Virus record (IMG/VR): IMGVR_UViG_3300009008_000141
Location: 1-34,030 of that record
DNA length: 34,030 nt
Reading direction: 5' to 3' (one strand)
Origin: a virus
Shown here piece by piece: positions 1 to 31,406 of the stretch (positions within the stretch are counted from its first letter, which is position 1; every line of letters starts with the position of its first letter). The notes beneath the pieces were generated by a model, which was not told the DNA's origin, did no database searches, and saw nothing but the letters and a program-made list of their open reading frames with translations. The position numbers and the translations under genes are program-made.

Positions 1-1730
1 GCGCCGGTCCTTGCGCCACGGATGCCTTGAATTGCAGGACCAATCATCCCCAGAGCACTAAAGACTGCCGAAAAAGCTTTAACTGCCCAAACGTTCTCAG
101 CCATGGTGGTCTGGAGACTTGCAACCATTTCCACTGCTTGTGTTTGGCTCTCCTGCAGTCCTTTGTTAGCCTTTTCGTCCGCAGTCATTGCTCTAGCGTT
201 CTGCTTGTCAATCTCCTTAGTTGACGTTGCCCCCTTTTCCTGCTTGGCAACAAGACCACTAATATATTTTTCTAAGTCTTGCGTGCCCTTTTTACCTAAT
301 TTTTGAATTTTAAGTATTTCAGACTCTTTGAGACCTGTTGCTGTTGCCGCCTCCCTCAGTCTGCCCCTCTGATGTGAGTCTGACAGATCATGCTTGCTTT
401 TCACTATAGCGTCGGAAATTATCCTAAATTTCTCTGCTCCACGAGCCTGATTTAGCATTACCTGAGATATTCTATCTTGAGGATTCAAGTCTAATACAGC
501 ATTTAGCGCAGCTGATGCCTTTGCTGCTCCTGTAAGCGTATCCATACTATCCATACTCTTCATTATCGCATCTACTGAGATTCCCAGCTTACCGGAAATG
601 GCAGCCATTTTAGTAAACTGCTTCTTGCCATCCCTGCCGTAAGTCGCTATAAAGTTTTTTGCCTTAGAAAAGTCTTGAGCAACCTTTTGTGGCGATTGAC
701 CCAGTTCTCTGGATAGGTCCAACAAACTGCGACTTGCCTCTTCTGCCTGCTCTCCAGAAAGACCAAAAGACTTCCTGAAAAGCTCATAATTTTCCGCTGT
801 TGTTGCTGCAGAAACTCCCGCCTTTTCCATCAAGGCTGTTGTCTTTACTATTTGGTCTTGAGTTTTTCTATTCTCCTGTCCAAAAAATGCGTAAGCGTTT
901 CTTAATTCAACTTGCGCGGAAACGAGAGCCTTATCTTCCATCAAGAGAGACTTTGTCGAATCCCCGATCTTTCCCAACCTCATTGAAAGCTCTATGTTAT
1001 TTTTTGTTATTTGACCTGTTTGCTTATATATCTGCTGATTAGTAATCTGCATGGTCTTGGAAATATCCGACCATCGCTGGGCTTGCATGGTGACTTGATT
1101 AAGGATGTCACCCTGCTTCCTTATTGACTGTGCTGCCCTACTGTTAAAAGCTGCTTGCATCGCGCCCTTGGCGACATCCATGGAAGCTGTAAACTTATCA
1201 TTAGCCTTTGATATATCTTGAAAGGACTTAGATACTGCCTTGTATGAGCCCTTTAGTTTGCCAAAAACACCCGTGACTGTTACACCGGCGTCTGCCATGT
1301 TATAGTAACTTAGTGCAACATTTTGAGCCAAAGATCCTAGAGACCTGTCTTGTTCTGCCGATTCCTGCTTTCTTCTATTATATCCATCAATCTCTGCCCC
1401 GACATCCTTCAGGGCTTGTTCTCTCTCCTTTAACCTCTCGACCTCTTCTTTATTTAATTGTCCGTTTTCGTCCAATTGGGATGCGATATCTTGCTGCTGA
1501 TTTACTTCTCTGGCTCTTAGTCTTTCTAACGCTTCTAGAGCTTCTTTCGTCCTACCCAGCTCTTCATTTAACTTTATTTGTGCTTGTAAAAATTCTTCGG
1601 TGATTTCGGCATCGGGGGCAGAAGAGCCACCACTACTAAGAGCGTCGGCAAGAGATTTCAGCTCTGCCTCGCTCATTGTAGAGCCTAACGCTTTTCTTAA
1701 TAATTCTTTAATTTCCCTCTTGCTAGCCAC
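1..1730 (-). CDS. Tail tape measure protein, N-terminal part (truncated by window edge)
   Basis: A reading frame of about 576 codons stays open to the left edge, so the C-terminal part is missing. It starts at a GTG (1728-1730) preceded by GGAGG nine bases upstream; the codon just before it is an in-frame stop, so no longer start exists. The protein is rich in Ala, Lys, Gln and Glu with long predicted coiled coil (about residues 30-110 and onward). The visible part ends in a Gly/Ala-rich, more hydrophobic stretch (MIGPAIQGIRGARTG). This composition, together with its position after sheath, tube and the gp26-type gene, fits a tail-length tape measure protein that fills the tube. T4 gp29 is the functional counterpart, but I see no clear motif linking the two, so the call rests on composition and context. 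A baseplate hub protein is the main alternative. Confidence 0.75.
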   Translation of the reverse strand, partial: MASKREIKELLRKALGSTMSEAELKSLADALSSGGSSAPDAEITEEFLQAQIKLNEELGRTKEALEALERLRAREVNQQQDIASQLDENGQLNKEEVERLKEREQALKDVGAEIDGYNRRKQESAEQDRSLGSLAQNVALSYYNMADAGVTVTGVFGKLKGSYKAVSKSFQDISKANDKFTASMDVAKGAMQAAFNSRAAQSIRKQGDILNQVTMQAQRWSDISKTMQITNQQIYKQTGQITKNNIELSMRLGKIGDSTKSLLMEDKALVSAQVELRNAYAFFGQENRKTQDQIVKTTALMEKAGVSAATTAENYELFRKSFGLSGEQAEEASRSLLDLSRELGQSPQKVAQDFSKAKNFIATYGRDGKKQFTKMAAISGKLGISVDAIMKSMDSMDTLTGAAKASAALNAVLDLNPQDRISQVMLNQARGAEKFRIISDAIVKSKHDLSDSHQRGRLREAATATGLKESEILKIQKLGKKGTQDLEKYISGLVAKQEKGATSTKEIDKQNARAMTADEKANKGLQESQTQAVEMVASLQTTMAENVWAVKAFSAVFSALGMIGPAIQGIRGARTG

Positions 1731-2119: not shown

Positions 2120-2157
2120 ATAGCAAATGGGGTCCACAAAGACCCCAAAATTGCTAT
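2120..2157 (-). terminator. Strong stem-loop at end of tail-assembly ORF
   Basis: The inner stem GGGGTC/GACCCC has a six-base loop and is extended by an outer ATAGCAA/TTGCTAT pairing across a small internal loop. The outer arm overlaps the stop codon of the ORF ending at 2154. No clear T-tract follows on the minus strand, so it may be a weak terminator or an RNA-processing or stability hairpin. Confidence 0.5.
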
Positions 2158-2351
2158 CTTTTCTTAGATGCTTTTTCCAACTCATCTGCCTCCTCCTCAA
2201 ATTGTTGCTGGATTCTTCTCAGAAACCATCTCCTAATTTGAATTGGCAGGTTATACGCTTCTATGAAGCTCCAACCTCCGTGATGTTTCATGGCAAATAT
2301 TTCTTCATAAACACCTTGTATATATTCGTTACCCAGGCCAAAAGAAGTCAC
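2154..2351 (-). CDS. Tail-assembly ORF overlapping the gp26-type gene in the +1 frame
   Basis: The frame encodes a compact helical protein with the recognisable stretch VYEEIFAMKHHGGWSFIEAY followed by NLPIQIRRWFL and an acidic tail. Similar short proteins follow the gp26-type gene in other T4-like phages, to my recollection, as baseplate hub or tail assembly factors. How it is started is unclear. The frame could begin at a TTG at 2420 with no visible Shine-Dalgarno, or at the GTG at 2351 with GGAGG 12 bases upstream, which is the boundary used here. Alternatively it may have no start of its own: the preceding gene stops at 2329-2331 inside this ORF, and a +1 shift there would append 58 residues to that protein. 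The coding reality is well supported by the protein's character; the 5' boundary is not. Confidence 0.6.
   Translation of the reverse strand: MTSFGLGNEYIQGVYEEIFAMKHHGGWSFIEAYNLPIQIRRWFLRRIQQQFEEEADELEKASKKR
2329..2337 (-). other. Candidate +1 ribosomal frameshift site (CCT GGG TAA C)
   Basis: The gp26-type gene ends in the codons TGG CCT GGG TAA. Moving one base forward at GGG puts the ribosome on GGT AAC GAA, in the frame of the overlapping conserved ORF. A stop codon waiting in the A site after a codon whose tRNA can re-pair one base forward (GGG to GGT) resembles known stop-associated +1 shifts such as the prfB CUU UGA C site. No experimental support is available here. Confidence 0.35.
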
Positions 2352-3186
2352 CCGTAATGGGCACCTCCATTTCCACCGTATAGCCACAGTGAGTGCATTC
2401 TGTTTGTTGCTTGAAAGCAACGTTTGGCATGACCTTTCTATAGGTCTCCCTTATTAGCCTGGAATCCAATGCAGGCATTACGTCTGCAAAATTATTAAGC
2501 TGCTCGCGGTCTGTTACTCCGTTTGCAGAGTGGAGCATCATCTTAATCATATCTGTCAAAGATGACTCCTGAAGGTTGTTTGTCTCCTTCATCTCTCTTG
2601 CCTTTTCTAGCTTGGTTTCATCCTCGCCAGTCAGGGCTCGAATCTCTACCAAAAATTTTGACTTCGGAAGTTCTAATTCCACCGTTCCATTCTCTGTAAA
2701 ACGATGGGCATCTCCCTTCTTTGTCTCCATAGTTGTGTAGGAGTCCGAATAAGTTGACAGATCGAACGTGAAATCATAATCTCTATCACAATTATCACAC
2801 TCTATCTCAACCTCATAATCAGAGCCATATCCAGTGACTCTTGCAGCATAAAGTAGGGCGTTCCTGTCTCCGATTGTTAATTCTTCGACGTTCACGTCAT
2901 CTATCAAGATGCTCTGTAACATTCTGTCTATCGCTACTCCCTTTCTAAGCAAAGATTGAGAAGACAGGATATCTTCTTCCTTTGCAGTCATGTGTCTTAT
3001 TTCCACAGTGTCTTTTCCATATAGGGGGTGATCAGATGGATAAAGTAAACCCTTGGATGGTAGATCTACTATTTCTGTCGGGGTGGAAAAGTTAAGAACA
3101 GAGCCTCCGCTGGAGTTACCAGCCAGCAGAGGCTCGGGAATCGCTGATGTGTTTTTTCTTCTTGATTCATTTCTACGATTTGACAA
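2329..3186 (-). CDS. 26: gp26-type T4 baseplate / tail assembly protein with split zinc ribbon
   Basis: This 285-residue protein carries the pattern typical of the T4_baseplate family: TEIVDLPSKGLLYP at residues 37-50, then HMTAKEEDILSS, a helical core, and a closing zinc ribbon. The two metal-binding knuckles are separated: CDNC at 130-133 and CTHC at 264-267. In T4, gp26 acts in baseplate hub assembly. The start is a TTG at 3186 with GAGAGG five bases upstream; no upstream ATG is available and the next Met is well inside the conserved region, so the TTG start looks real. An extended -10 element (TGATATAAT) lies at 3209-3217. The gene ends in FFWPG inside the next ORF, and the two may be joined by a +1 frameshift to give 343 residues. 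Confidence 0.8.
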   Translation of the reverse strand: MSNRRNESRRKNTSAIPEPLLAGNSSGGSVLNFSTPTEIVDLPSKGLLYPSDHPLYGKDTVEIRHMTAKEEDILSSQSLLRKGVAIDRMLQSILIDDVNVEELTIGDRNALLYAARVTGYGSDYEVEIECDNCDRDYDFTFDLSTYSDSYTTMETKKGDAHRFTENGTVELELPKSKFLVEIRALTGEDETKLEKAREMKETNNLQESSLTDMIKMMLHSANGVTDREQLNNFADVMPALDSRLIRETYRKVMPNVAFKQQTECTHCGYTVEMEVPITGDFFWPG

Positions 3187-3239: not shown

Positions 3240-3848
3240 TTATTTCTTTTTTGGTCTGCCGTCGACACCCATAGCACCGACGTTCCGAGATGCCAATCCA
3301 GTGGCGCGTTTTATCTGCCCAGTGTCATGATGTGACATTGGCGCAAGGCTTGCCCAATCATACCGGAAAGTACACTCTAGATTGATAAGATCATCAGACT
3401 CGTAATCGCCTTCGTCAAAGTTTATTGACTTGATCCAAGGATTCCAGAAGTGCCACTCTTCAATGACCTTTCCCGTGGAATCGACCATCGACATAAACAT
3501 CTTTCCGCCCACTGCTTCTACTGCAGCCCTCTTTGTTAGAGTCTTGGGCATGTTTACATTTATCTTGTCTGGTGTTTCATAGCCTGATAATTCTAAGAGT
3601 TTCATCATAACAGCAGACGAATCCGGATGGAGTGGATCTGCAATTGTAACGCTCATTTCATCGTAATCTACTCTGCCTGGAAAATAAAACTTATAATTCA
3701 TAAAAGTATGTTCTGCTTCTGACAAGTTTATTGTTGGTCTACTTGCCTTCTTTAGAAGCCAATAAGGTATTCCATTAAAACCCATCATCCATCTAAACTT
3801 TCTCTTTGGCTCGATGGCATGATCGCTCCAAAATTTTCTTGATCCCAT
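3240..3848 (-). CDS. 19: Tail tube protein (gp19-like)
   Basis: This protein forms the inner tail tube through which DNA passes. At 202 residues it is somewhat longer than T4 gp19 (163). Family features include an N-terminal segment with FNGIPYWLLKKASRP, the VDYDEMSVTIADPL strand-loop-strand region, and the C-terminal SDDLINLECTFRYDW strand. The last 25 residues form a basic tail (GVDGRPKKK) that is not part of the core fold. The ATG has AGGAGG eight bases upstream and an ACTAATTA motif 34 bases upstream. It directly follows the sheath gene, the same sheath-then-tube order as in T4. Confidence 0.9.
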   Translation of the reverse strand: MGSRKFWSDHAIEPKRKFRWMMGFNGIPYWLLKKASRPTINLSEAEHTFMNYKFYFPGRVDYDEMSVTIADPLHPDSSAVMMKLLELSGYETPDKINVNMPKTLTKRAAVEAVGGKMFMSMVDSTGKVIEEWHFWNPWIKSINFDEGDYESDDLINLECTFRYDWASLAPMSHHDTGQIKRATGLASRNVGAMGVDGRPKKK

Positions 3849-3914: not shown

Positions 3915-6900
3915 TTAATCATCGAATGCTGCACCATTATTTGTTATGATAAAGTCAATTGCGATGAACTCCAAAGCCTTAGCTGGCTTTATGAATATCT
4001 TTGCATACATGATGTTTCTGTCTACCAAATCAGGAGTAGTAGTAGTTTCGTCCAATACGACCCTGTACTGCTCAAGACCAAAGTTGGCTTTCACAGAACT
4101 CAAGAATGGCTCTACTTGACCTCTGAATCTGTTCCAGGTGGCGTTCACATTAGGCTCAAACAAGAGCCCTGAAGCCATCCTAGAAATTTCCTTCTTCAAG
4201 AACACCACAAGTCTTCTAACATTGATTCTGTCAAGTGCAGAAGGCGTTACCTGTAGCGTCTTTTGTCCAAAGATTACAATTCCCTCTGCTGGGAAAGTAG
4301 CTATCGGATTAATGTTTGCCTCATATAGGTCGTCTCTGTCACGAGAAGAGAGTCTTTGTGATGTTGACAAGACAGGTACACCTGCCAAGCCGTCACTCAA
4401 GCCACCTCTGGTGAATCCTGCTGGTGCAAACCATAGATCAGAATTTCTCTCAGTGGACGCGAACGTTCCAAGTGCCACTACTGATGGCGGTACCCAAAGA
4501 TCCTTGTTGGAAATGTCATCCCTGATCTTGACCCATGGAAAGTACGTGCAAGCATAGCTTGAATTTATATTTCTCTTTTCAAGATTCTCAACACAAGTCT
4601 TAACACTGTTGTTGGTGATTCTTGTCTTAAAGTTGCTAGTAGTCTCACTAGATGGTTGATAGCCGTTGTTTTCGACGTCTATAATAGCCAAGCAGTCTCC
4701 TCTGTCTTCAGCGACTCTGATTATGTGGTCGGTGACTAAAGGAGCACGGACGCCTGGGACGCAAATCATGTTAATGTCTGCAACCTCTGGGTCTCCGACT
4801 GAGTCGATTGCCCTCTTGATCGAGTTAGCTGCTGCGTTACTCTGGAAAGTCTGGTTGTCAGCACCTACTATATGGTTACCCAATGGTGCCCTCTCCTTTA
4901 CAGTAAGTCCGTCAAATCCGCCATACATAGGCGAGGTGAAGTTGGTAAACCCAGACTTAACAAGCTCCTTAACGCTCTGCTTTACCGTGTAGCTGTTGCC
5001 CATCTTTCGGGAACCAGACATATAGAACATGTCAGTTAGGCTTGTGCCTACCGCATTTGTTCCAACGAGGTCATCCAGAGAGAATATGAACGATGTTTCT
5101 AGAGTAGATCCATCTCCGCTGGTGGCAGAGTCCCACGCGTCGGCAGGGACGCCCTGTCCACCCCTGGTGATGTCCCAGTAAGATTCGTCGAATGTTGGGT
5201 CTCCAGGAGCACGTCCAGTGAAGACACCAAAGTGAGCTTGCTTATTATTTCTTAGACCCTCTGCAGAAGCAGACATTCTCAAAGGCAGACTTGGGAAAAG
5301 AACCCTTGCTGCTGGATTGTGATTCCCAACTAGCTCGCCCGTGATGCCTGTAATGCCTGGGACCGAGGCGGTGAGTGCTGCAGCGAAGACAGCCGAACTC
5401 TTAAAAGGAGACGTTGATACTGCGCTTGCGAGCATCAAACTACCACTACCAAATACCGCTGTGTGAGCGAGGGTCGACGCGGCGAGAGTGCCCTCAACAT
5501 CACTAGAAGCCGAGTGTACCGTTAATATCGAGTACTGACCATCGCCAATGCCATTGTGAGCAAGGCTAACTGCCTTGTATCTTGGCGGACCAAAAAAGCC
5601 AAATGGCAACATTGCTGCGTCGGTCATACCCTCATGTACGTCCGAGTCCATTTCCACTCTCACAAATGCTGAACGATTTGGGTAAGAGTTGTATGATCTA
5701 TATCTCTGTTCGTAACTATCCCATTCTTGGTATTGGTTACCAATCTTTGCTGCAATGTAATTCGGAGATTGTGGATCTAGGGTACACTGAGAAAATCTCT
5801 CTAGTACTCTTGGGCTGCCATCGGTGTCCTTTGCGTGACGTAGAGTGACGGTAAAGGTTCCGTAAGGACTGACTTCTGTGCCTAGTTTGTGGTCAGAGAT
5901 AGAAACCTTTATATTTCTTCCTGCCCAAGCTCCGTCATCTAGAGCTACAAGCCTAAATAGCTTTTGTTGCTTGCCAGCGTCGAATTGAGTACTGTTGCTG
6001 GTCACGTCCTGGGAGATAAACCAGCCGGTCTTTGCAGGTTGTGTGCTCTTCTGATTGGATCCCCAATCTGCTGTTCCGGAAGTACCCTTGAGTCCTACGA
6101 TGACGCCATAGAGGGAAGAGTCGGCAGTCAGTGCACCTTCGTGGAGCGTCGAGCCATGCATATCCCTAGCGTGTCGATCAAAGGATTCTCCTAGCCAGTA
6201 CTTCTTTCCAGAGCTGACTTGAGCACCAGCCAAAGCTGGATTTGTGTTAAATACTTTTCTAATATAGTTGTCACTGTTTCTATCGAAATTAAATGTGACC
6301 TTCTTACCAACATTAGCATTGTCAAAAAGAACCGCCGTGAACTCCATATTGGCAGTATTGCTACTTCTTAATGCCAAGGAATTTCCTGCTGCTTGTCCAA
6401 AAGTCCTGGTGTGTCCTCCTCCCGACGGTGATCCGGGTGGGAGATGGGTTGAGGACGTTGCAAAACCAATGTTGAAGCCTGGAAGAAGCGTACCCGAAAG
6501 TTCGATGGCTCCAGCGTCGAAATACCATACTGCCGCAAGTGATCCAGTTGTTGCACTGGAAGCACGATTACCACTGTTCACGTTCAACCATGCGTCGACA
6601 GAATTAGCGCCGGCGGAAGCCGTAGCAGAAGGTGCTCCTAAGAAAGCCCCAACATGATCTCTCTGACCAGAACCACTGGAAAATAAGAATAGACCGTATG
6701 CGCCGCCTCCGGAGGCTGGGGTCGTACTGGTTGCCGCTACGTGGGCGTTATCTAGAGCCCAGCCGGCAGGACCGTTTGATGTTGATGTTGCATCATCGTG
6801 AGCCTCTCCCAAAACTCTTACTATAGTAGCTGGAGCGGCGTTTCTAAGGTAAGCCAACGCAGCGTAACCAGCGTATGTGGGACCCATCTTGTTACCCTCT

Positions 6901-7118
6901 CTCCAGGCATCACCACCTCTACCTCCTGGGATAGGGTTGCCAAAAATTCGTATAAAATCTGATACAGATTCTACACGGATGGGGCGGTTACTTGGACCCC
7001 TCTCAAATCTACCTATTATTGCCGGGCCAGGTCTGTTTGGCTCCGGTCCAAATTGGCTATTATCAATTTCGTTTATTTGTACTCCGGGTGAGACGAACTT
7101 AAATCTATCAACGGACAT
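3915..7118 (-). CDS. 18: Contractile tail sheath protein (gp18-like), oversized
   Basis: The N-terminus has the sheath signature (SPGVQINEIDNS, then GPAIIGRFERGP and a VSDFIRIFG element). The C-terminal roughly 350 residues contain the conserved contractile core: ADINMICVPGV, a WFAPAGFTRGG element, the LDRINVRRLVVFLKKEI helix, NRFRGQVEPFL and the closing YAKIFIKPAKALEFIAIDF strands. Sheath subunits form helical rings around the tube and contract to drive it into the cell. At 1067 residues it is far longer than T4 gp18 (659). The extra mass is a Gly/Ser/Thr/Ala-rich central region, about residues 110-620, probably surface domains. Upstream are an AAGGAG-type Shine-Dalgarno, a T4-type late promoter octamer, an ACTATTTA motif and a strong terminator that isolates it from the fibre gene. 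Confidence 0.93.
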   Translation of the reverse strand: MSVDRFKFVSPGVQINEIDNSQFGPEPNRPGPAIIGRFERGPSNRPIRVESVSDFIRIFGNPIPGGRGGDAWREGNKMGPTYAGYAALAYLRNAAPATIVRVLGEAHDDATSTSNGPAGWALDNAHVAATSTTPASGGGAYGLFLFSSGSGQRDHVGAFLGAPSATASAGANSVDAWLNVNSGNRASSATTGSLAAVWYFDAGAIELSGTLLPGFNIGFATSSTHLPPGSPSGGGHTRTFGQAAGNSLALRSSNTANMEFTAVLFDNANVGKKVTFNFDRNSDNYIRKVFNTNPALAGAQVSSGKKYWLGESFDRHARDMHGSTLHEGALTADSSLYGVIVGLKGTSGTADWGSNQKSTQPAKTGWFISQDVTSNSTQFDAGKQQKLFRLVALDDGAWAGRNIKVSISDHKLGTEVSPYGTFTVTLRHAKDTDGSPRVLERFSQCTLDPQSPNYIAAKIGNQYQEWDSYEQRYRSYNSYPNRSAFVRVEMDSDVHEGMTDAAMLPFGFFGPPRYKAVSLAHNGIGDGQYSILTVHSASSDVEGTLAASTLAHTAVFGSGSLMLASAVSTSPFKSSAVFAAALTASVPGITGITGELVGNHNPAARVLFPSLPLRMSASAEGLRNNKQAHFGVFTGRAPGDPTFDESYWDITRGGQGVPADAWDSATSGDGSTLETSFIFSLDDLVGTNAVGTSLTDMFYMSGSRKMGNSYTVKQSVKELVKSGFTNFTSPMYGGFDGLTVKERAPLGNHIVGADNQTFQSNAAANSIKRAIDSVGDPEVADINMICVPGVRAPLVTDHIIRVAEDRGDCLAIIDVENNGYQPSSETTSNFKTRITNNSVKTCVENLEKRNINSSYACTYFPWVKIRDDISNKDLWVPPSVVALGTFASTERNSDLWFAPAGFTRGGLSDGLAGVPVLSTSQRLSSRDRDDLYEANINPIATFPAEGIVIFGQKTLQVTPSALDRINVRRLVVFLKKEISRMASGLLFEPNVNATWNRFRGQVEPFLSSVKANFGLEQYRVVLDETTTTPDLVDRNIMYAKIFIKPAKALEFIAIDFIITNNGAAFDD

Positions 7119-28304: not shown

Positions 28305-31300
28305 CTATATATTAACGTGTGCAAAGCCAGACTTCCTCTCAATGCTGATCTGCATATCCACGCAATCCTTTAAAGTATCTAGATGTGAAATAAGAATTAC
28401 CGTCTTAAAATATCCCTTAACCATGTCCAGGATTCTAACAAATCCTTCCATATTTTCCTCATCCAAGGCAGTTCCGGGCTCATCCAAAATGAACAAGTCC
28501 GACTTCGGCAGGCTTGATACTGTCAAAAAGGCCAATCGAAGAGCCATCGAGGCTATCGTCTTCTCTGCTCCAGATCCCATCTCCAGGGGTCTAGGGTCGT
28601 GCTTTGGATGCTTAATAAAGATATCCAATTTTTTATCACTGTTCTGAATAAAGATTTCAAAGTCCACTATGTTGGTAAGGATCTTCGCAATCTCCTGGTT
28701 AATTATTGGCAATCTCTCCTTTATGATATTATAGGAAATGCCGTTAGGGTGAGCACAAGACATCAATAAGTCATATGCTGCGAAGTCCGTTGCTAAAGTC
28801 TTGTATTCCCCCTGCTGCTCCTTCAGGGACTTAAGCTTTTCTTCCATGGATCCGTATGACTTGTGAAAAGACAACATGTCTTCGTGACACTGATCATACT
28901 CCTTTTGTTTTATTTGGTGGATCTTTTCACACTCTCTCCTGTGACCCAACAGAGACTCTAGGTTTTCAATCGCCTCTCTGTTGCTCTCGTACTCTTGTTC
29001 TTTTGCCGACAAATCCTTCAGTACGTGCTTAGATCTAAGAATCTCCGTCTTGTTCTTCTCTAGAGATATCTGCATCTCTGCCATGGAATTGGCTACTGTG
29101 TTCTTCTTGTCCAGAAGTCTATTATATTTTTCAATGTATTCATCAATTTTCTGCTGCTCTTCAGATTTGAGACCGCTTCCTACATTGTTTATCTCTGTGC
29201 TGATGGCAGACATGTTCGCTTCTTTTTCTTTGATTACGGAGCCCAAAATCTCGGAACAACCACTGCACATCATATCTCCTTTTCTGACTAATTTTGTCTT
29301 CTCTTCGGAGATCCATTTCATCTGAGATAAGAGAAACTCTAACCGATCCTTGTTTTCTATGATCTTTTCTCTCTTTTCTTGATAAGAGCCAATGTCAAAT
29401 TCTCCCAAAAAATCCTCTATTTTGGAATAGAGCGCCTGGCTCTCTCGCAATTCATTTTGCGTAGAATCATTTTTATCCGAGAGGTGCTCGACTTTATTTT
29501 CCTCTCTGGAAATCTTTTTTCTTAGCGATTTTATGTCAATGATTTCTGTCGGAACAGAGTCTATCTTTTCTTGCACCTCGCTCATCTCCAGGGAGATTTC
29601 TTGAATATCCTCTTTTAGAGTTTCGCAAATGGCTTTGTTCCTCACAATAGCTATTTCACTTTCTGTGATCTTCTTCTTCGCTTCCTCTATCATGGAATCG
29701 TAGTCCACATCTTCAAGCTTCTTTAATGCGCCCTTAGTTAGAGAACTATCCTCTTTTGCCATCTTGAACTTTTTGTCAAAAATCTCTAGATCTAGAAACT
29801 TTGCCAATATTTCTTTTCTCTTTGTAGATCCCTCATTTACGAAAGACAGAGAATCAAGCTGACTTGCCATAGAAGTTGATAGAAAATCATCTAGTGTGCC
29901 AAAGTACTTTCTGATGTTTCTGTCAGTGTCTTGTCTTGAGGTTCCGTTTAGACTTGTCCTGTTCCCAAGCAAATCTACAGTTTCAAAATCTAGGTCTGTT
30001 TTTGCCTCAAGTGTCTCTTCTCCCTTTAGCTTCTTTACATACTTTTCAGCACGTCTATCAATCAAATATGTCTTATCATCAACGCCAACAATCGCCCTTA
30101 CCGAACACTTATCCTCGTTTTGGTTGATGACGTTCAAGTTCCTTCTTACGGATTTTGACGTAGAGTTATACAAAGAAAATAACAAAGAGTCCACGACAGA
30201 GGACTTGCCGGAGAAATTCTTTCCGAAAATACCTACGATGCCTTCTAGTTTGGCAAAATCAATTCTATTTCCCTCTCCGTAATTGAACATATTGTCCCAC
30301 TCTAGAGATTTGAGGCTCCAACTTATATTCCTATATGTGTCCTCTTTTTGCTCAATAGCCTTATTGTACCTTGAGTTCAGGTCCAATACGCGCTTCATTA
30401 CATCGTCAGATACTTGAAAATCCTTTAAATAGCCTTTTATTAAATCCTCTTGTGTCTTTAGGTCTCTTAGATCTTTTTGTTCGAACCCATCCCCAGAATC
30501 TAAGGTTATCTTTTTTGTAGCTGCGCGATTCAAATAGGTAACAGACTCTGGATCGTGCCTGTACTTGATTATCTCTACTGCATGGCGCATCTTATCTAGA
30601 GAAATACTACTATCAGATACAAGCCTCAACCTCGCACCCTTCGGAACACTTATATCGTCTGGTAGGTCTCCCTTGTTGGTGAGGGGGATTGTGATAAATG
30701 GTTTTGGATTATCGAAAGTGATTAACTTATTGGTAAACTCATCTTTGCTCTCAATATCCCACAGTAAATAACCCTTATCTAGTGATTCTCCGAAGTTCTG
30801 CTGAACAGTTGAGCCCGCATACCAGATACGGCCGTCCTTGTCGAGAGGTTGAGTCTTATGTATATCTCCCAAAAAGGCAAAATCAAACTCACTGAAGATC
30901 TCAATGTCGTGGTCGCCGCCGAGGGTCCAGTTTAAGTCGGTCTTAGATTTATCGATGGCTCCATGATAGAGGGCTATATTTATCTTGTCTGGATCTGTTG
31001 GGTCGACCCAGTTCTCTTCGTCAAACACAGATAACACATTAAGGCAAAACTTGTCGTCAAGATGCACCTCTCCTGCGTTCTTAATTAAATGTAAGTTAGG
31101 GGAACCAATTGCTTTAACAATTGGACTCAGGGCGTCTTGGCGGTTGTGGTTACGCAAATTGCCATCATGATTTCCTAAAATTATATATGTTGGGGCAATA
31201 TTGCTAAGATTTTCGAAAAAATCTCGTGCCATGTCTACAAACTCTGGTGAAATTTGTGTCTTAGTGTGTGCGATGTCCCCGCAGTGAATAATATAATCCA

Positions 31301-31406
31301 CGTTACTATCAATCAGTGATCGATAGAGCTGATCAAAAACCTCTCTATATTCAAAATGATATTTAAGATTTCTAATGTGGGTGTCCGCAATATGCGCGAA
31401 TCTCAT
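28305..31406 (-). CDS. Fused Mre11-Rad50 (SbcD-SbcC; gp47-gp46) recombination nuclease
   Basis: One 1033-residue chain contains both halves of the complex that T4 makes as gp47 and gp46. Residues 1 to about 330 form a metallophosphoesterase with all Mre11 motifs: D8-T-H10, CGD44, GNH80D, H148 and GDIH183. After a short linker comes the Rad50 ATPase: Walker A GKNFSGKS (395-402), a coiled coil of about 330 residues broken by the zinc hook C714-S-G-C717, the signature MGSGAEK (943-949), Walker B LFILDEP (971-977) and a closing H-loop ISHLD. The complex resects DNA ends and feeds recombination-dependent replication. Every catalytic motif is intact, so both activities should be present. It has its own sigma70-type promoter and GGAGG ribosome site. 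The fusion is the main oddity. Confidence 0.95.
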   Translation of the reverse strand: MRFAHIADTHIRNLKYHFEYREVFDQLYRSLIDSNVDYIIHCGDIAHTKTQISPEFVDMARDFFENLSNIAPTYIILGNHDGNLRNHNRQDALSPIVKAIGSPNLHLIKNAGEVHLDDKFCLNVLSVFDEENWVDPTDPDKINIALYHGAIDKSKTDLNWTLGGDHDIEIFSEFDFAFLGDIHKTQPLDKDGRIWYAGSTVQQNFGESLDKGYLLWDIESKDEFTNKLITFDNPKPFITIPLTNKGDLPDDISVPKGARLRLVSDSSISLDKMRHAVEIIKYRHDPESVTYLNRAATKKITLDSGDGFEQKDLRDLKTQEDLIKGYLKDFQVSDDVMKRVLDLNSRYNKAIEQKEDTYRNISWSLKSLEWDNMFNYGEGNRIDFAKLEGIVGIFGKNFSGKSSVVDSLLFSLYNSTSKSVRRNLNVINQNEDKCSVRAIVGVDDKTYLIDRRAEKYVKKLKGEETLEAKTDLDFETVDLLGNRTSLNGTSRQDTDRNIRKYFGTLDDFLSTSMASQLDSLSFVNEGSTKRKEILAKFLDLEIFDKKFKMAKEDSSLTKGALKKLEDVDYDSMIEEAKKKITESEIAIVRNKAICETLKEDIQEISLEMSEVQEKIDSVPTEIIDIKSLRKKISREENKVEHLSDKNDSTQNELRESQALYSKIEDFLGEFDIGSYQEKREKIIENKDRLEFLLSQMKWISEEKTKLVRKGDMMCSGCSEILGSVIKEKEANMSAISTEINNVGSGLKSEEQQKIDEYIEKYNRLLDKKNTVANSMAEMQISLEKNKTEILRSKHVLKDLSAKEQEYESNREAIENLESLLGHRRECEKIHQIKQKEYDQCHEDMLSFHKSYGSMEEKLKSLKEQQGEYKTLATDFAAYDLLMSCAHPNGISYNIIKERLPIINQEIAKILTNIVDFEIFIQNSDKKLDIFIKHPKHDPRPLEMGSGAEKTIASMALRLAFLTVSSLPKSDLFILDEPGTALDEENMEGFVRILDMVKGYFKTVILISHLDTLKDCVDMQISIERKSGFAHVNI

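Follow-up and report, generated by a model that had tools for sequence, protein, structure and literature searches.

The locus described here raises the question of how a second open reading frame (ORF), which runs through the stop codon of a gp26-type gene in a different frame, comes to be translated. The window, by which we mean the whole stretch of DNA analyzed, is IMG/VR record IMGVR_UViG_3300009008_000141 (34,030 nt, positions 1 to 34,030); it is a structural module of a T4-type myovirus, with PHROG matches to portal, head protease, major head protein, terminase, sheath, and tube. The gp26-type gene ends in GAC TTC TTT TGG CCT GGG TAA on the minus strand, and the second ORF, +1 relative to it, is open from stop to stop (2450-2154) on the same strand. 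The initial annotation had described a 285-residue protein within 2154-3186, with a +1-frame ORF passing through its end, and had proposed that a programmed +1 frameshift at GGG-T, onto the stop codon, joins the two into a 343-residue fusion. The coordinates, frame, and length were all borne out by our analysis, and translation with a +1 shift does give 343 residues. The genes and products concerned are listed here.

3240 to 3848, minus strand: tail tube gene, upstream of the gp26-type gene (phrog_4542, E = 8e-18).
2329 to 3186, minus strand: TAC-N, gp26-family (T4_baseplate) protein of 285 aa with a TTG start, the product of ordinary translation (PF12322, phrog_150).
2154 to 2339, minus strand: TAC-C, a 61-codon +1-frame extension (GLGNEYIQGVYEEIF...WSFIEAYNLPIQIRRWFLRRI...KKR) and stop, with a gp51 C-terminal domain (profile-profile match, pN/pS).
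2154 to 3186, minus strand: TAC-NC, the predicted 343-aa frameshift product (translation with one base skipped).
3 to 1730, minus strand: presumed tape measure gene, downstream, assigned by position and length only; it extends past the window edge.

The overlap, the frame, selection on both frames, conservation of the slip motif, the absence of start codons, and the homology of both halves were all computed here. Membership of TAC-N in the gp26 family follows from its match to PF12322 (residues 57-283, E = 1.4e-15, 58 bits against a curated cut-off of 24.5), and phrog_150 was matched as well (E = 1.2e-18). An AlphaFold2 model of this 0-frame protein reached a pLDDT of 88 and had 58 matches at E ≤ 0.001 in a viral structure library, several of them named gp26 or baseplate hub. 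A search of the PDB by sequence returned no match, and Foldseek matches of the model to the PDB were all poor; the one of highest probability was the HK97 tail assembly chaperone 2OB9 (probability 0.38, E = 1.4, not significant), a likeness that is only a weak hint. The pair occupies the slot between the tail tube and the presumed tape measure (the latter by position), as had been noted initially. No family match to the presumed tape measure was found in profile searches, nor did BLASTP align it with the tape measures of immuto and Mel-JY01; the annotations of Flavobacterium phage immuto, SP-15, and LIS04 do place a tape measure in this slot. Elsewhere in the window, the tail sheath protein (3915-7118, minus strand) is long for its family at 1067 aa, with profile matches mainly in its C-terminal part and a long N-terminal region that has no family match, and a single 1033-aa polypeptide (28305-31406, minus strand) combines an SbcD-like half (residues 1-356) with an SbcC-like half (326-1030), corresponding to T4 gp47 and gp46 in fused form.

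The overlap between the gp26-type gene and the +1 ORF is real. The chance of finding 61 open codons in random sequence of this composition is about 0.04, so the open frame alone is unremarkable; what raises the overlap above chance is that the +1 frame is kept in relatives and is under selection. Relatives were gathered by IMG/VR scans with the window protein, the Mel-JY01 protein, and the immuto protein, together with a scan with the protein of uncultured phage LR756508, and the 155 loci considered below are the non-redundant uncultured relatives that carry the domain after near-identical loci were dropped. The downstream domain is in the +1 frame at every one of these 155 loci, and the canonical -1 arrangement X_XXY_YYZ occurs at none. 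The +1 arrangement is also present in Microcystis phage Mel-JY01, Flavobacterium phage immuto, Bacillus SP-15, Listeria LIS04, Streptococcus GXN1, Rhodothermus RM378, and the uncultured megaphage LR756508 (seven records, six host genera), and the one relative found in a genome collection, on a Flavobacteriales MAG contig, has the same TTT TTT TGG CCT end. In the +1 frame, pN/pS was 0.146 for set 1 (50 loci) and 0.147 for the more distant set 2, whereas the same DNA gave about 1.5 in the other two frames, a contrast which argues that the +1 domain is translated as protein.

Profile comparison points to the identity of this domain. TAC-C aligned over its whole length with the gp51 C termini of cyanophages, KVP40, phiM12, HTVC008M, and T4 (hhalign probability 95.5%, pairwise E = 1.6e-8), and the gp51 profile phrog_634 crosses the junction in the fusion (residues 235-310, E = 0.0037; E = 0.16 for the separate ORF). 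When the fusion family was compared with the lone T4 gp51 sequence, hhalign gave a probability of 6% and aligned the zinc-ribbon stretch only, a comparison that is too weak, and tblastn with a guessed T4 peptide had no match, a result that counts for nothing either way. Together, the gp26 (PF12322) and gp51 C-terminal homologies favor the tail assembly chaperone role that the initial annotation had suggested. In public records the +1 domain of immuto (L082, 3220-3443), SP-15 (L086, 3277-3476), and LIS04 (L084, 3202-3433) is annotated as a 36 or 39 aa fragment or left empty, and these annotations look as though they miss the frameshift extensions.

The constant element of the junction among relatives, which also anchors its register, is YUU_UGG_CCU (YTT_TGG_CCT in the DNA). 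Its parts, and one further element upstream, are the following.

2338 to 2343, minus strand: slip codon TTT (2343-2341) and 0-frame A-site codon TGG (2340-2338), T2340 being the skipped base (codon conservation).
2335 to 2337, minus strand: conserved CCT codon, which with TGG forms the near-invariant TTTTGGCCT and is read as CT+N (Leu) in the +1 frame (codon conservation).
2363 to 2369, minus strand: Shine-Dalgarno-like TGGAGGT, whose end is 19 nt upstream of the slip codon, with GAG at its codon in 44 of 50 loci; a possible lineage-specific stimulator.

TTTTGGCCT occurs once in the window. The second of the two Phe codons is TTT at all 50 set 1 loci and never TTC, against a gene-wide usage of 73% TTT and 27% TTC, while CCT occupies its position at 47 of 50 against 26% of Pro codons. 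CCT is the largest synonymous outlier in the gene (z = 6.7), and among positions with ample data it is followed by GAG in TGGAGGT (z = 3.9) and by the TTT codon (z = 3.65). Across the 155 loci, the second codon is TTT in 130, CTT in 23, and CTA in 2, so that YTT followed by T, the RF2-type slip codon YUU_U, is found in 153, and each of the 155 has TTT_Y at the first or the second codon; a trade-off between the two was suggestive only (Fisher test, p = 0.076). At the two non-redundant loci with CUA_U, the slip would have to take place one codon upstream at UUU_C, a site of the influenza PA-X type (PMC3498833), since CUA_U cannot slip. The motif appears to decay where the domain is missing, because two loci that lack it read TTC TTG TAT CCT (L180) and TTC CTT TGG CCA (L186). 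Both of these loci have another ATG-started ORF in the -1 frame after gp26. The CCT codon is read doubly, as WP in the 0 frame and as Leu (FGL) in the +1 frame, and its conservation may reflect this double coding or an aid to the shift. UGGCCU is more constant than a plain UUU_U slip requires. In LIS04 (L084), SP-15 (L086), and GXN1 (L087), NCC CGA TTY stands in place of TGG CCT after the Phe codons, and a different +1 site, NCC_C, is possible in these phages.

Before a frameshift is accepted, a downstream ORF with its own start has to be weighed, whether through coupled reinitiation, through the GTG at 2351, or through an ATG in the Y-M lineages. The TTG at 2420 and the GTG at 2351 named in the initial annotation are both present, the latter with GGAGG (2368-2364) 12 nt upstream as part of a GGAGGT; a loose scan found some start with an SD-like tetramer at 15 of 50 set 1 loci, and KVP40-type relatives are annotated with a separate gp51. 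The GTG is not kept among the near relatives of the window, however, and is absent from the 65% identical locus L002, which retains the overlap, so that it fails as an alternative start. At 41 of the 155 loci, the +1 frame has no ATG, GTG, or TTG from its upstream stop to ten codons beyond the slip codon, before the conserved core, and some would need ATA or ATT. The +1 frame opens just 5 nt ahead of the slip codon at 15 loci or more, and its entire upstream part in L105 is AFFGLSPKYRPIL. These missing starts and late openings confine the shift to a few codons, and they support a downstream ORF that has no independent start. An own start would also leave the invariant TTT and CCT in gp26 unexplained, and we consider it highly improbable. 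With the +1 frame kept in 155 of 155 loci, purifying selection on it, and starts absent in 41, the programmed +1 frameshift proposed initially is, in our view, very likely.

Where the ribosome slips is a separate matter. The GGG_U site of the initial annotation, prompted by a UAA stop in the A site, has in its favor that stop-adjacent +1 sites exist (RF2; CCC_UGA of Listeria PSA, PMC5009743) and that GGG TAA is present in the window, but this end is kept only in the nearest relatives, L001-L007. The overlap is kept everywhere, whereas the codon after CCT varies (AAG, CAG, GAC, GGA, CGA, and others), in sets 1 and 2 the stop is found 4, 5, or 7 codons beyond the slip TTT, with its position wandering over 1-4 codons past CCT, and nearly every clade has a different codon ahead of it. 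With stop position and preceding codon this free to vary, the stop does not belong to the signal and GGG_U cannot be the common site; a slip there would set the virus of the window apart from its own clade and is very unlikely. A slip elsewhere in the conserved block, which we judge unlikely, could take several forms. CCU_N would account for CCT being the strongest synonymous outlier, but the domain is intact where CCT is replaced by CCA (L012, L020; Leu lost, Pro kept) or TCT (L067; Pro lost, Leu kept), and the following base and codon are variable. The CTA loci do require the earlier Phe codon (UUU_U or UUU_C), yet 16 loci have TTC or CTT at that codon, which is under no extra synonymous constraint (z = 0.28). 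A -2 shift leads to the same frame as +1, but it would have no pairing on TTC TTT TGG, the four-T form found at 13 of the 113 sites of sets 1 and 2 (the window and 12 others). The same 13 sites speak against transcriptional slippage that drops one U from some mRNAs, for which the run of seven Ts at 97 of the 113 sites might be cited; to our knowledge, a four-T run is too short for any known RNA polymerase slippage, and this explanation is scarcely credible. Among the positions within the motif, YUU_U is thus the likely slip site.

Taken as a whole, the reading in which two chaperones are made from one gene by a P-site +1 slip at UUU_U (2343-2340) is very likely. Ordinary translation would yield the gp26-like TAC-N. 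On a minority of ribosomes, the P-site tRNA-Phe would move +1 at UUU_U, re-pairing from UUU to the overlapping UUU with the Trp codon UGG waiting in the A site; GGC would be read next, and translation would run on for 61 codons to give the 343-residue TAC-NC. In relatives, the slip codons would be UUU_U or CUU_U, with UUU_C in a few. TAC-N would then coat the tape measure, and the gp51-type C-terminal domain of TAC-NC would recruit tail tube subunits. We infer the in vivo shift, its efficiency, the tRNA step, and the role in assembly, the last of these for the window locus by analogy with lambda G/GT.

The stimulators known from other systems were sought around the slip site. The A-site codon is TGG (or TAC), and an RF2-type stop codon was not found there, nor was an RF2-like Shine-Dalgarno spacing of about 3 nt upstream. 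TGGAGGT was rejected as a general stimulator, being kept at synonymous positions in the clade of the window only and not in set 2, and its 19-nt distance is unusual. Nor was RNA structure on either side of the site convincing as a stimulator: downstream the mean z was about -0.9, and other parts of the gene ranged from -0.9 to +0.1. We see about an even chance that the junction combines a UUU_U or CUU_U +1 slip before a sense A-site codon, operating without RF2-type stimulators, with a direction that flipped within one family and with UGGCCU as an undescribed +1 stimulator.

Frameshifted tail chaperones, the gp26/gp51 kind among them, are already known, as is one likely +1 precedent in HSTV-2; what would be new is a +1 shift at YUU_UGG_CCU in T4-type phages. 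Our literature search found no report of this signal, and Vladimirov et al. 2022, known to us through the papers that cite it, may already list part of it. The +1 version is widespread among uncultured phages, with more than 150 distinct relatives, and also occurs in named isolates; the current annotations of Mel-JY01, immuto, SP-15, and LIS04 either omit the second half or give it as a separate hypothetical gene. The nine-base signal can be used for scanning, the natural slip-codon variants TTT, CTT, and CTA make up a test set for +1 slippage at a sense codon, and a single family allows -1, +1, and no frameshift to be compared at one position. If the reading is true, a programmed frameshift would have reversed its direction at a single site as one protein family evolved.

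Frameshifted tail chaperones have been described as general in long-tailed phages, T4 excepted, and the archaeal myovirus HSTV-2 is listed as a very likely case of a +1 shift (PMC5009743). In lambda G/GT (Xu, Hendrix and Duda 2004; PMC5009743), a short and a long chaperone are likewise made from one start by overlapping frames before the tape measure, but lambda differs in the direction of the shift (-1 rather than +1) and in its site, and sequence similarity was not detected. The slip itself resembles that of RF2 (prfB), in which CUU_U or UUU_U slips in the P site and re-pairs to UUU. In RF2 the shift site is CUU_U, a minority of species having UUU_U instead (PMC5009743), and the replacement of TTT by CTT at 23 of our 155 loci matches it. 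RF2, however, places UGA_C in the A site, and its Shine-Dalgarno sequence lies 3 nt upstream, whereas the window has UGG and neither of these features. Influenza PA-X, whose +1 site is UUU_CGU (PMC3498833), shares UUU plus a pyrimidine, a sense codon, and no obvious stimulator, but it is an unrelated gene of a eukaryotic virus, and most sites here are UUU_U.

The closest comparison is with the T4-like phages. According to Vladimirov, Gautam and Davidson 2022, as cited in PMC10885494 and PMC12846349, gp26 and gp51 are the tail assembly chaperones of T4-type phages, and the citing papers attribute the making of these chaperones to -1 shifts or to other routes; poly-T signals for a -1 shift have already been recognized in T4-like TAC-N genes (PMC12846349). 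The families are the same as here, with gp26 as the short form and the gp51 C terminus as the extra domain, and so is their place before the tape measure. T4 itself encodes gp26 and a full-length gp51 separately, on opposite strands and with no such overlap. In P-SSM2, S-PM2, HTVC008M, KVP40, and phiM12, by contrast, the gp51 domain follows T_TTT_TTY (T_TTT_TTC or T_TTT_TTT) in the -1 frame, and these -1 heptamers sit at the same two Phe codons as the +1 slip site of the window. A GGAGGG lies about 10 nt upstream of the heptamer in P-SSM2 and S-PM2. The records of P-SSM2 (L210, 2315), S-PM2 (L200), phiM12 (L211, 1822), KVP40 (L212), and HTVC008M (L213) annotate gp51 as a separate short gene. 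In LR756511, the domain is in another frame and begins at an overlapping TAATG start. The arrangements of these five phages, the window, LR756511, and T4 thus represent -1, +1, coupled-start, and split-gene solutions at one junction of one family.
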